DNA of 64,000 bases from assembly GCA_035627955.1 (NCBI GenBank), contig DASPKU010000023.1, forward strand, positions 1 through 64,000. The letters are read 5' to 3'. The stretch's first letter is position 1; every line of letters begins with the position of its first letter. Position numbers and translations under genes: made by a program. Under the pieces are notes generated by a model that was not told the DNA's origin, ran no database searches, and saw only the letters and a list, made by a program, of their open reading frames with translations. The DNA is from Phycisphaerales bacterium (GTDB taxonomy: Bacteria; Planctomycetota; Phycisphaerae; Phycisphaerales; UBA1924). This document shows positions 2,218 through 48,671 of this stretch, piece by piece.

Positions 2218-3663
2218 TCACAGCGCCATCCGCGCCCCCGGCTCAATCGCCCGTGGCAGCTTCGCCTTGTACGCGTCCAATTCTTCGGCCGAGGTGGCCG
2301 TGCGGGCCGAAACCTCGAGCAGCGCGTCCACCGTCCCATCGGCCTTGGTCGGCACCTTTACGCCCGCGGCCGTCAGCCAACGGGCCGCGCGGCGCGTCTG
2401 GATCTCGCGGCTGCTCTCCACGCTGTCAACGCCGGTGGCGTTCTTGATGGGCGCGAACTCCTCGATCCGGTCGGTCTCGTAGACAATCGACGAGCGGCAC
2501 AGCGGCAGAGCGTCGAACACGAACCGCTCGAGCTTCACGCCGTTGTTGCCGGTTGGGGCGACCGGCTCGCCCTTGTCGTTCACGTGCGGGATCTTCTTCT
2601 CCGCGCGGTGGTACGGAAGCGCGAACTGCGGGTCGGTCGCGAGCCGCTGCACGAACTCCACGCTCATCACGTGGATGGCGATCGAGCCGGCGATGAAGCG
2701 GAGCGTGCCGTCGGGCAGGGTCTGCTCCTGGAGGGTCTGCGGCAGGTCGGAGTACTCGATGACCTCGGTCTTGCCGTTGACGGAGCAGAACACGCCAACC
2801 TTCTCGCCGGGGCCGGTCTTGCGGACCATCTTGCTGGACATTTCGCCGGAGGACTCGAGCCCGCCGCCGCCCGCGCCCGCGTGCAGGCCGAGGAACACGG
2901 GGTCGATCGCCCGCACGATCGGGTTGTCGACCTGGAAGTAGCTGATCTGCTCAACGCCGCGCTTGCGCATGTCGGCGAGGGCGCCGCTGACGTGCAGGGC
3001 GCGGATGGAGCCGCCGTGCCCGTCGGGGTTCGTGGCGACCTCGCCCTTGCTCGCGAGCAGGATTTTGCCGGAACTCATGTCAAAGCTGGGCAGCACGCCC
3101 TGCGGAAAGAACATCACATTGCGACGGTCGAGGCCGAAGAAGCGATTCTGCTCGAAAAAGCTGACCGTGGACTGGTGGTTGAGCGGGCTGGTCATGATGT
3201 ACCAGGGCACCGGCGCCCCGTAGCGGTCCTGCACGCCCAGCAGGTTCTCGGCGAAGATCTGGAACAGCGGCTTGCCGGTCACCGCGCCCGCGGGGTAGCA
3301 GCCCTTGGGGCCGTCGAAGCCCAGGCGCGAGCCCTGGCCGCCGGCGACGGTGAACGCGGCCACCTTCCCGGCGCGGATGAGGGCCTCGCCGGCCTTCTGG
3401 GCCGCGGCCTTGTCCCAGCGGCGCGTCGGCGAGTTCGGGTCATTAGGGAAGTAGGGCGCGGGGCCGACGTCGGCCGACAGGCTGAACGCGGGTTTGCTCT
3501 TGACGTACGCCTGCACGAGTGCCGGGACCGACTCAAGGTCGAGCTGGTCGATCTGGGTGAGCAGGGCGTCCTGCTCGTGGCTGGAGAGCTCGTTATAGAA
3601 CCGGAGCAGGTGATCCTGCTGGATGTTCTCGAGCCGCTGGCGAACCTGGGCGTACGTGGGCAT
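2218..3663 (-). CDS. UDP-N-acetylglucosamine / UDP-sugar pyrophosphorylase, eukaryote-like (UDPGP family)
   Basis: Predicted to make a UDP-sugar from UTP and a sugar-1-phosphate (GlcNAc-1-P or hexose-1-P), feeding cell-envelope glycan synthesis. The 481-residue protein carries the nucleotide-binding loop AGGQGSRLGFDGPKG (about 113-127), then MTSPLNH, FFPQGVLP, GHGGS and YFQVDNP. That layout matches eukaryotic UAP1 and UDPGP type 1 enzymes rather than bacterial GlmU, and there is no left-handed beta-helix acetyltransferase domain. The ATG lies in a roughly 80-base gap shared with the divergent rlmN. I cannot tell GlcNAc-1-P from Glc-1-P specificity by eye. Confidence 0.85.
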   Translation of the reverse strand: MPTYAQVRQRLENIQQDHLLRFYNELSSHEQDALLTQIDQLDLESVPALVQAYVKSKPAFSLSADVGPAPYFPNDPNSPTRRWDKAAAQKAGEALIRAGKVAAFTVAGGQGSRLGFDGPKGCYPAGAVTGKPLFQIFAENLLGVQDRYGAPVPWYIMTSPLNHQSTVSFFEQNRFFGLDRRNVMFFPQGVLPSFDMSSGKILLASKGEVATNPDGHGGSIRALHVSGALADMRKRGVEQISYFQVDNPIVRAIDPVFLGLHAGAGGGGLESSGEMSSKMVRKTGPGEKVGVFCSVNGKTEVIEYSDLPQTLQEQTLPDGTLRFIAGSIAIHVMSVEFVQRLATDPQFALPYHRAEKKIPHVNDKGEPVAPTGNNGVKLERFVFDALPLCRSSIVYETDRIEEFAPIKNATGVDSVESSREIQTRRAARWLTAAGVKVPTKADGTVDALLEVSARTATSAEELDAYKAKLPRAIEPGARMAL

Positions 3664-3731
3664 GGACCAACTTCTCCCGTTTCGAAAAGCCTAGCACCGC
3701 GCGAACGAACTCCGGTCCAGCACGGCCACCA

Positions 3732-3737
3732 TACGAT
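3732..3737 (+). promoter_or_regulatory. -10-like hexamer for rlmN (predicted leaderless)
   Basis: TACGAT ends 6 nt before the TTG start of rlmN. No ribosome binding site is present between them. Confidence 0.45.
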
Positions 3738-3743
3738 GCCACG

Positions 3744-5081
3744 TTGAAACACCCTCGCCATCACATCTTCGAGCAAACCCCCGAGTCGCTGGCCGCGTGG
3801 TGCGCCGAGCGGAAGATGCTGCCCTTCCGCGCAAAGCAGATTCTGGAATGGGTTTACCAGAAGGGCGTGGCCGACCCGGCCATGATGTCCAACCTGTCCA
3901 AGCTCGATCGCGACACCCTTGCCCGCGAGATGACATTCCTTTCAGGCGAGGTGCTGCTGCACCAGCGGGCGACGGACGGGACGCAGAAGCTGCTGGTGGA
4001 GTGGAGCGACGCCGGGCCGCGGAGCCCCACGGCCGCGGACAACCCCCAGTTCGACAAGCCGATCCCGCTGCCGGTGCTGCCGGCGCAGAAGAACCTGGGC
4101 GATCCGAGCCGGCAGACCGAGTGCGTGATGATCCCGTCGCTGGGTACCCCGACACTCCGTGCTGGGAGTTCACGGGTCGATGACGCGGCGGATGAGGACG
4201 GGATGGAGATGGTGGACACGGACGAGGAAGCGGAGTCGCATCATTGTTCGGTGGCGAAGAGAACAGGCAGAGCAGGCCCGGCTCGGAGAGACGGGGTACC
4301 CAAAGGCGAGAGCTCGCAGCGGTTCACGGCGTGCATCAGTTCGCAGGTGGGGTGCCCGGTGGGATGCAAGTTCTGTGCGTCGGGGCTGGGCGGGCTGGAC
4401 GCGTCGCTGTCGGCGGGGCGGATCGTCGAGCAGGTGTGGCGGCTGGGGCGACTGCCCGGCGTGCGGCGGATCACGAACGTCGTGTTCATGGGGATGGGCG
4501 AGCCGCTGAGCAACCTGCCGGCGGTGGTACCGGCGGTGCGGACGATGACGAGCCTGTGGGGGCTGGGGATCTCGGCCCGCAAGATCACGATCTCAACGGT
4601 GGGCCTGCCCAAGGCCATCGACAAGCTGAGCGAGCAGCTGGACCTGCCGGTGACGCTGGCGCTTTCGCTGCATGCGCCCAACGACGAGCTGCGGCGGCAA
4701 CTGATCCCGTGGGCGGAGTACACGACGATCAAGGACCTGCTGGCGGCGTGCCAGCGGTGGTTCGAGAAGACCGGGCGGGAGATCACGCTGGAGTACACGC
4801 TGCTGCGGGGAGTGAATGACCGGCCGGAGCATGCCGAGCAGTTGTCGCAGGTGGCCCGGACGCTGCGGGCGAACGTGAACCTGATCCGGTACAACGAGGT
4901 GAAGGGCATGCCGTTCGAGCGGCCGCAGACCGAGGACGTGCGGCGGTTCCAGGAGGTGCTGCGGGCGCGGAACGTGAATGCGCACATCCGGGCGAGCCGC
5001 GGGCGGGATATCGCGGCGGCGTGCGGCCAGCTGCGGCACGAGGCGACGCACTCACCGGCGAATCCGGCGGCACCGGGCTGA
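3744..5081 (+). CDS. rlmN: 23S rRNA (adenine2503-C2)-methyltransferase RlmN with an internal insertion
   Basis: Radical-SAM enzyme that methylates C2 of A2503 in 23S rRNA, and of A37 in some tRNAs. The N-terminal helical region (FRAKQILEWVYQKGV) is followed by the iron-sulfur motif CxxxCxxC at Cys204, Cys208 and Cys211 (GCPVGCKFC), then MGMGEPL and the STVGLP and LSLHAPND strands. The protein is 445 residues, while family members are usually about 340-380. The excess lies at residues about 133-188, between TECVMIPS and RFTACISSQVG. Both edges of this stretch are TGGGTACCCCG repeats (see the repeat entry), so the extra segment came with an inserted element yet keeps the frame open. The start is TTG; the next Met is inside the conserved domain. 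Confidence 0.92.
   Translation: MKHPRHHIFEQTPESLAAWCAERKMLPFRAKQILEWVYQKGVADPAMMSNLSKLDRDTLAREMTFLSGEVLLHQRATDGTQKLLVEWSDAGPRSPTAADNPQFDKPIPLPVLPAQKNLGDPSRQTECVMIPSLGTPTLRAGSSRVDDAADEDGMEMVDTDEEAESHHCSVAKRTGRAGPARRDGVPKGESSQRFTACISSQVGCPVGCKFCASGLGGLDASLSAGRIVEQVWRLGRLPGVRRITNVVFMGMGEPLSNLPAVVPAVRTMTSLWGLGISARKITISTVGLPKAIDKLSEQLDLPVTLALSLHAPNDELRRQLIPWAEYTTIKDLLAACQRWFEKTGREITLEYTLLRGVNDRPEHAEQLSQVARTLRANVNLIRYNEVKGMPFERPQTEDVRRFQEVLRARNVNAHIRASRGRDIAAACGQLRHEATHSPANPAAPG
4140..4306 (+). repeat. In-frame repeat element in rlmN with TGGGTACCCCG inverted ends
   Basis: The left end (from 4140) reads CTGGGTACCCCGACACTCCG. The right end (to 4306) is the inverse, GGAGAGACGGGGTACCCAAAGG. The same ends bound the 17602-17716 element, and one end occurs alone at 48646-48671. 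It is about 167 bp here against 115 bp at the second site. It adds roughly 55 residues to RlmN without breaking the frame. Confidence 0.65.
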
Positions 5082-5084
5082 TCT

Positions 5085-5858
5085 ATGGGCGATGTGTTGC
5101 CAGCCCTGCTCGCGGTGGCGGACGCTTCGGAACAGCGGACATTCTGGCCGTACACGCGCGACCACTGGATCGCGCTGGCGGTCACGGCGGTGGTGACGGT
5201 CGGGCTGTCGTGGCTGGGGGCTCGGTGGCGGGGCACGCCCAAAGGGCGCACGCTGCACGAGGGGTGGACGTGGTTCGTGATCGTCGTGCAGGTGCTGAGC
5301 CTGTACTACTACGTGTGGCACCGCGGCTTCAGCTGGGAGACGAGCCTGCCGCTGGAGATCTGCGATCTGGCGGGGATGGTGTCGGTGGTGGCGCTGTGGA
5401 CCGGGCGGCGGGTGCCGACGCTGATCCTCTATTACTGGGCGTTCGCGCTGACGACCAACGCGTTCGTGACACCGATCCTGAGACAGGGACCGGAGAACCT
5501 GCGGTACTACGTGTTCTGGATCACGCACATCGTGATCCTGGCGTCGGCGGTGTACGTGGTGGTGGTGCAGCGGTTCAGGCCGCGGGGCTGGGACTTCGGG
5601 ATGATCACGCTGGTGATGTGCCTGTATGGTGCGGTGGTGATCCCTCTAGACGTGATCATGGAGTTCAACTACGGGTTCGTGGGGGACAGCAAGCCGGACA
5701 CGCCGACGGCGGTGGACATCCTGGGGCCGTGGCCGCTGCGGCTGGTGTGGATGTTCCTGGCGGTGCACGGTTTGTTTCTGTTGTTGACGGTGGTGTGGTG
5801 GAGGCCCCGAAGGCGCGAAGCGGTCGGTTCGGTCGGATCAGTCCAACAGGTCAGATAG
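5085..5858 (+). CDS. YwaF/TIGR02206-type integral membrane protein
   Basis: The 257-residue polytopic membrane protein has six to seven hydrophobic segments. Motifs typical of the YwaF family are visible: LPLEICDLAG near residue 90, YYWAF near 112, then NYGFVGD and DILGPWPLR (about 190-215). The family has no established function that I know of. It begins 3 nt after the rlmN stop, so the two are probably co-transcribed. The C-terminal REAVGSVGSVQQVR is encoded by a 9-bp tandem repeat (5821-5865) and looks like an acquired tail. Confidence 0.8.
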   Translation: MGDVLPALLAVADASEQRTFWPYTRDHWIALAVTAVVTVGLSWLGARWRGTPKGRTLHEGWTWFVIVVQVLSLYYYVWHRGFSWETSLPLEICDLAGMVSVVALWTGRRVPTLILYYWAFALTTNAFVTPILRQGPENLRYYVFWITHIVILASAVYVVVVQRFRPRGWDFGMITLVMCLYGAVVIPLDVIMEFNYGFVGDSKPDTPTAVDILGPWPLRLVWMFLAVHGLFLLLTVVWWRPRRREAVGSVGSVQQVR

Positions 5859-17601: not shown

Positions 17602-17716
17602 CTGGGTACCCCGCCGCTCCGCGGCGGTTGTTTGATCCAGGAAATTGGTGCGCACCCAGGTCGTCGCGACCATCAGTCGCGCGAAGACCGCAGCGGAGCG
17701 GCGGGGTACCCAAAGG
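17602..17716 (+). mobile_element. MITE-like element with TGGGTACCCCG terminal inverted repeats
   Basis: CTGGGTACCCCGCCGCTCCG begins the base after the miaB stop. Its inverse, CGGAGCGGCGGGGTACCCAAAGG, ends 10 bases before the DUF58 stop. Inside the ends the arms extend as CGCCGC/GCGGCG pairs. There is no transposase frame, so it would move in trans if it is mobile. Related ends occur in rlmN and at 48646. Confidence 0.6.
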
Positions 17717-48645: not shown

Positions 48646-48671
48646 CCGCGGCGGAGCGGCGGGGTACCCAG
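48646..48671 (-). repeat. Solo end of the TGGGTACCCCG element
   Basis: CCTGGGTACCCCGCCGCTCCGCCGCGG read on the minus strand, matching the terminal repeats at 17602 and 4140. No partner end is near. It sits between the rpsG terminator and the ThiF promoter. Confidence 0.55.

Follow-up and report, generated by a model that had tools for sequence, protein, structure and literature searches.

The rlmN gene of a Phycisphaerales bacterium, located in a stretch of 64,000 nucleotides that we refer to as the window, contains two inverted palindromic repeats of the REP type, which lie in frame within the coding sequence and enclose an acidic segment of the encoded enzyme. We regard it as highly probable that these repeats constitute a decaying REP doublet devoid of a transposase, which resides in a surface loop of RlmN and originates from a system of the REP/RAYT type. 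In relatives of this bacterium, RAYT transposases appear to be embedded in housekeeping enzymes as in-frame domains, a reading that is well supported since it recurs in many separate genomes. While the doublet in rlmN is of a known kind, the novelty lies in the gene-resident RAYT: because in-frame intragenic REPs have been described, rlmN alone adds one clear example, namely a doublet in decay within an enzyme that modifies rRNA. The features of the window are compiled in Table 1, where G002 denotes the genome with the best RlmN match among 60 relatives.

Table 1. Position of rlmN and of REP-related features in the window.
Feature	Position	Strand	Remarks
rlmN	3744-5081	+	445 aa, TTG start according to the ORF list; open throughout the repeat segment
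REP heads TGGGTACCCCG inside rlmN	4141-4151 and 4292-4302	+ and -	both exact, inverted
Left REP unit	4141-4165	+	TGGGTACCCCG-ACA-CTCC-GTGCTGG; encodes LGTPTLRAG; imperfect stem, misses the full-unit pattern
Acidic interior	4180-4272	+	residues about 146-177; resembles the acidic loop of G002
Right REP unit	4278-4302	-	TGGGTACCCCG-TCT-CTCC-GAGCCGG; encodes PARRDGVPK; one stem mismatch
REP doublet	17603-17712		heads exact at 17603-17613 and 17702-17712; stop codon immediately before the doublet
Single REP unit, same family as the rlmN arms	48646-48670	-	head 48660-48670 exact; one stem mismatch

A preliminary description of the window had noted inverted copies of a shared terminal repeat in rlmN and at a second site, and at both places the two copies are indeed exact. 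Searching the window for TGGGTACCCCG with up to one mismatch returned five matches, all of them exact, against 0.96 expected, a number reached in none of 100 shuffles. The genome-wide search for further copies that had been proposed (4.26 Mb in 23 contigs) identified 63 exact heads, 34 on the forward and 29 on the reverse strand, whereas the reversed pattern does not occur. The sequence TGGGTACCCCG forms only the head of a REP hairpin, which spans about 25-40 bases, and is not a complete terminal repeat, so that the notion of a repeat-ended feature present in many copies holds, while its terminal repeat is better read as the REP unit of a doublet. Full units follow the pattern TGGGTACCCCG-NNN-CTCC-GNNNCGG. 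In 77 such units, comprising 54 of the 58 from this genome and all 23 from G002 but excluding the left arm in rlmN, which falls outside the pattern, all three variable positions of the stem are complementary in 71 cases, compared to a mean of 31.9 and a maximum of 43 in shuffles; the stem bases of the units thus covary. With 58 copies against none in the reversed-pattern control and with a covarying stem, the units conform to the definition of REPs as stem-loop palindromes of 20-40 bases that are found in many copies. Chance or low complexity as origin of the repeats was ruled out by the copy counts against controls.

Among 41 genomes searched, full units were found in five (58 in this genome, 23 in G002, four in G024, two in G017 and one in G023), and four additional genomes that were reached via individual loci contain 34 (G064), one (G063) and none (G061, G062). 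In G002, four units are arranged in tandem with a spacing of 82 bases (L193, G002:C12:91642-91912). The tag of the units is GTAC in 54 of the 58 copies of this genome, GTGG in three and GTTG in one, whereas it is GTAG in 23 of 23 units of G002. Since the tags of this genome are mostly GTAC and lack the GTAG that members of the GTAG superfamily carry at one end, we class its units as REP-like and not as GTAG REPs proper. The GTAC unit is free of stop codons in all six frames, while the GTAG unit of G002 contains one stop in one frame.

Twenty-six of the 63 heads combine into 13 convergent pairs with lengths between 83 and 178 bases. Neighbouring heads that are less than 500 bases apart form 15 pairs, 13 of which are convergent, two tandem and none divergent. 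Between the spacers of these doublets no relationship is apparent, as no 12-mer is common to any of the 78 spacer pairs, and the length is divisible by three in three of the 13 doublets (108, 111 and 162 bases), including those in metH and rlmN. Two of the 13 were folded, and in both the ends close onto each other (z -8.78 for 17603-17712 and -3.08 for the rlmN doublet), which together with the inverted arrangement of two REPs in all 13 convergent pairs corresponds to the anatomy of REPINs. With regard to the hallmarks of MITEs, terminal inverted repeats and a target-site duplication, the arms in rlmN are inverted, and a TCG borders the left arm, but not the right one, at either end, possibly by chance.

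The product of rlmN scores 338.6 bits against the RlmN equivalog TIGR00048 (cut-off 290), and residues C197, C204, C208, C211 and C427, which we take to be the catalytic cysteines, are invariant in an alignment of 38 sequences. As noted in the preliminary description, the repeat segment is placed in frame between TECVMIPS and RFTACISSQVG and has become part of RlmN. The two arms encode residues about 133-141 and 179-187. The suggestion that this segment forms a loop agrees with the structure predicted by AlphaFold based on 38 sequences, which has a mean pLDDT of 85.4 and 317 of 445 residues at 90 or more, and where values under 50 are found in residues 105-112 and 139-184. The latter stretch, located between the strands 124-132 and 193-197, probably is a disordered loop. 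No Rfam family matched the region 3600-5200 of the window at E values up to 1. Elsewhere in the genome (G000:C11:227493-228242), we found a second RlmN/Cfr-like protein with 41% identity in the core, which is present in many relatives too.

In RlmN of this genome, the motifs ECVMIP and (R/K)xTAC are spaced by 61 residues. The comparison with related proteins, which had been proposed in order to find a gap at the segment, revealed shorter loops in 29 of 29 relatives, with 39 residues in G002 and 3-25 in all others, and loops of 3-69 residues in the named loci, of which 26 of 31 were readable. The length of the loop thus varies naturally. L112 has almost no loop at this site; the 69-residue loop of L126 from an uncultured Phycisphaerales, which is longer than the one described here, opens with an acidic stretch. 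Instead of a gap, G002 has an acidic stretch and a right-arm REP (G002:C20:27697-27721, reversed) in the absence of the left arm. Its acidic stretch resembles the interior of the rlmN segment, with a local score of 33 compared to a mean of 17.8 in codon shuffles, none of which (0 of 2000) equals it. By eye, L102 and L103 also contain acidic RlmN loops without a TGGGTACCCCG REP, in genomes that hold no full units, but neither is detectably similar in sequence to the interior (p 0.46 and 0.63). Homologues that carry the segment without the element, which had been named as evidence to the contrary, are thus found in part, as a similar interior lacking the left arm in G002 and as acidic but dissimilar loops in L102 and L103. 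L103 (QWIH01000014.1) is titled Leptolyngbya sp. PLA1, yet its RlmN and RpoB group with planctomycetes and it is probably a mislabelled MAG.

Compared to G002, the insertion of the left arm would amount to about 40 bases and end near position 4179, as judged from the alignment. In a tree of RpoB from eight genomes, this genome groups with G011 and L112 (92/94), and G002 with L102 (100/100) and L103. A clade of this genome and G002 is rejected (p-AU 0.00013), for a pair that was picked after the RlmN tree was known. In the tree of RlmN, G002 pairs with L102 as its sister (98/91), whereas this genome is placed outside of L103 plus these two (91/85), with a weak fork (83/19). Since RpoB separates this genome from G002, the two right arms may be independent, or they may reflect one shared arm followed by losses. 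A shared origin is favoured by their identity in 26 of 28 bases, their equal orientation and the similarity of the adjoining interior, whereas the rejection of the clade in RpoB, the presence of the tag of the respective genome in each copy (GTAC or GTAG) and an extra half head upstream of the arm in G002 favour independence. On this evidence, the arms and the interior would have arisen through more than one step.

REP copies also reside in other genes of this genome. As 10 of the 30 frames with REP copies besides rlmN were submitted to Pfam, the resulting gene counts are lower bounds. Copies are located within Pfam domains of LigA (L023), MiaA (L042) and MetH (L045, the doublet of 108 bases), and, as weaker cases, between domains of a DnaE-like protein (L024), a DinG-like helicase (L022, two in tandem) and a PfkB/cytidylyltransferase frame (L047). 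Including rlmN, at least seven genes and at least 10 of the 63 heads are concerned, not counting L046 and one frame of L024, both without Pfam match, and L020 and L028, whose copies may not be contained within a single gene. Comparison to solved structures revealed about 17 extra residues at the REP in LigA (ligase 5tt5), about four in MiaA, and extra residues around both arms in MetH. By eye, metH and miaA of G002 also bear a REP at comparable positions. In-gene assignments from codon composition (21 of 55 in this genome, 5 of 23 in G002) were discarded, as many copies scored on both strands and the REP in rlmN of G002 was missed.

In relatives, similar repeats are accompanied by transposases. 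A search with the profile PF01797 matched 32 of 41 genomes, and of 20 loci with long frames we kept 15, dropping L210, L220, L225, L227 and L228 as spurious or ordinary by eye. In Pfam searches, a Y1 domain shares one frame with domains of LeuS in G024, G008, G011, G028 and G033, seemingly at one site, and in G076 at a different site. It is equally found in frames of ValS in G002, G047, G016, G015, G039, G043, G044, G007, G051, G066 and G065, all 11 with a class I synthetase domain and eight with the ValS C-terminal arm too, and with MiaA (G002), Ham1 (G013, G016, G032) and a class I/II aminotransferase (G088). The Y1 scores of L219 (22.5), L224 (20.9) and L234 (20.7) are below the Pfam cut-off of 23, and the host is only partly visible where a contig or locus ends within the frame, as in L215 (Ham1 of G016). 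Inverted REPs of the family found in rlmN flank the RAYT in leuS of G024 and in miaA of G002, where two of them, about 670 bases apart, enclose the RAYT in a single frame of 573 aa (L188 and L211, G002:C5); in miaA of this genome, one REP is found at a comparable position.

With the RAYT of G002 as query, matches were obtained in 40 of 101 genomes. Those with E values below 1e-17 reside in frames no shorter than 399 aa in 26 of 28 cases, compared to one of 34 among the weaker matches, and for 22 of these 26 long-frame RAYTs the host enzyme could be assigned from Pfam or by eye, the exceptions being G077, G011:C9, G024:C105 and G065:C66. The embedded copies exhibit the HUH motif and the catalytic-type tyrosine expected of RAYTs, with HVH in 22 of 22 aligned loci and the tyrosine of the YxxxNP motif in 21, all except G003; in the Ham1 copies of G032 and G016, NP in this motif is replaced by NA. 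Twenty-one of 23 embedded RAYTs could be scanned for starts of the ATG type. In seven of them, an ATG in frame precedes the RAYT by at most 40 codons, always without a Shine-Dalgarno-like stretch, and the 60 codons upstream are free of stops in all 21. On the thin control side of free-standing RAYTs, where the motif was missed in six of 11, the five readable cases include four with ATG, two with a Shine-Dalgarno-like stretch and four with a stop. In this genome, whose assembly is 95.67% complete, a RAYT of the G002 miaA type has no match, and none of its nine Y1 genes contains a TGGGTACCCCG-type repeat in flanks of about 1 kb. Some of its Y1 genes (L091, L092, L097) are surrounded by repeat families different from the TGGGTACC family, as recognized by eye from recurring translated peptides.

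In the case of ValS, a fragment of the protein matches 61 of 61 genomes, with G008 and G052 at just 28-29% identity and thus probably representing paralogues. A RAYT resides in the ValS loop of 12 of 49 genomes examined (G044, G015, G039, G051, G043, G047, G007, G036, G002, G003, G016 and G024, the last with the upstream anchor missing), with two RAYT types distinguished by eye. The other 12 genomes had shorter frames and their omission from this count was not random; the ValS cases of G066, G071, G065 and G073 were found in the RAYT search and are outside of the count. The loop of G011 contains an apparent doublet without transposase. ValS of this genome (L289, G000:C11:37800-42600) has no RAYT at the corresponding hot loop and instead an expanded repetitive stretch (EAPARFVEAPARSAEAPTR...).

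The route by which the segment entered rlmN can be envisioned in different ways. The model in the preliminary description amounts to a single small element bounded by inverted repeats, of the REPIN or MITE type, which would have inserted once, brought along the acidic spacer and later become part of RlmN. A doublet of 162 bases, within the range of the others and divisible by three, would suit such an event, the arms pair, and the unrelated spacers of the doublets would permit an acidic one. However, since the similar interior of G002 is found without the left arm, an origin of the acidic segment from a single element finds no more than partial support and is not supported in the form proposed; the acidic loops of L102 and L103 without REP also count against it, and we consider it unlikely. 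Two solo REPs might instead have inserted at different times at the ends of a pre-existing acidic loop, with small indels keeping the frame, to which we assign an appreciable chance that stays below even. The missing left arm of G002 and the different subtypes of the two arms would be accounted for, and about 40 inserted bases combined with a length difference of two bases would restore the frame, as derived from the alignment; conversely, the convergent orientation and end-to-end pairing are expected of a doublet, and G002 may have lost its left arm.

A segment that is under selection as functional domain or as mRNA hairpin regulating rlmN would explain why both heads are intact in 11 of 11 bases, but the region is predicted to be unstructured, loop lengths differ widely between homologues and the rlmN region has no match in Rfam, which renders this possibility improbable. 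Far less probable still is a self-splicing element, either an intein or an IStron-like intron. Its in-frame position would be in line with IStrons, of which more than half of the intragenic copies are in frame according to PMC4227781, whereas neither the rlmN region nor seven RAYT-bearing loci, the latter at the gathering score, contain an Rfam family and the Pfam tables of the loci searched contain no intein domain, thus ruling out known intron and intein families for these loci. The decaying doublet of a REP/RAYT-type system, which we favour, has to be reconciled with the imperfect stems of both arms. In the corresponding mechanism, a RAYT-type transposase would act on single-stranded REP hairpins and thereby mobilise REP doublets, one of which would have entered the surface loop of RlmN in frame. 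Since the GTAC unit is free of stops in six frames and the loop is tolerant, such an insertion would have left a readable enzyme, and intragenic copies would persist only where frame and loop permit. As there is no matching RAYT in this genome, we infer from its relatives that the rlmN doublet was moved by a RAYT; its neutrality for RlmN and the order of events are likewise presumptive.

Most components of this proposal have known counterparts. PMC3733652 describes REPs of the GTAG superfamily as palindromes of 20-40 bases with many copies and inverted dimers, whose GTAG termini often provide a stop codon and which occur within genes of several species, many of them in replication and repair; the repeats described here share the palindromes, inverted dimers and intragenic copies, but differ by their GTAC tag (GTAG in G002). 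The same paper reports Rickettsia palindromic elements inserted in frame in protein genes, a habit that is the sole feature compared and that concerns hosts of a different phylum. REPINs, defined in PMC3116915 as two inverted REPs with variable spacer forming an end-to-end hairpin, have the same anatomy, whereas here some doublets are located within coding sequence and a partner RAYT was not found in this genome. For RAYT or TnpA_REP proteins, PMC6006769 lists the HUH motif, the YxxxNP tyrosine and flanking REPs, mentions in-frame REPs in tnpA_REP genes of subclass 2.4 and excludes a small number of unexpectedly long proteins, taken to be fusions or annotation errors; the copies in relatives share the motifs and flanking REPs, but are located in frame inside housekeeping enzymes. 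IStrons contain an IS200/IS605-type transposase that is tolerated within genes, and are spliced out by a group I intron (PMC4227781); the intragenic transposase is shared, whereas the loci searched here show no intron match. In the literature covered, with most subscription journals outside its scope, we found no description of RAYTs that reside in frame within enzymes.

We tentatively propose, at a confidence approaching but not reaching an even chance, that Planctomycetes, and chiefly Phycisphaerales, carry gene-resident REP-RAYT-REP transposons within essential enzymes such as LeuS, ValS, MiaA, Ham1 and an aminotransferase. Such elements, with neither a stop nor a clear start of their own, would be translated as internal domain with preserved catalytic residues and leave behind transposase-less doublets like the one in rlmN. 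If this were true, they would represent a new mode of persistence of a mobile element and would supply core proteins with new loops and domains. For its expression, the transposase would depend on that of the host enzyme, and a frameshift would harm an essential gene. Loops of the ValS type, reused by two RAYT lineages, would act as docking sites for mobile DNA, through which core enzymes could gain residues, and the GTAC tag, by removing the one-frame stop of GTAG, would be an adaptation to intragenic life.

In a wider survey of 392 planctomycete genomes, the ValS-type RAYT matches 28 genomes at 36 places (E up to 1e-15). Three of these places are from the same family or order and all are found in frames of 1224-1389 aa, and of the remaining 33, 26 are found in frames of at most 299 aa and seven in frames of 365-1011 aa. 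Four of these seven, from other planctomycete families, were inspected by eye, and their long frames appear to combine the RAYT with FabZ-like (L334, G188), flavoprotein-like (L328, G360), DNA-methylase-like (L314, G164) and MoeA-like (L327, G260) host sequence.
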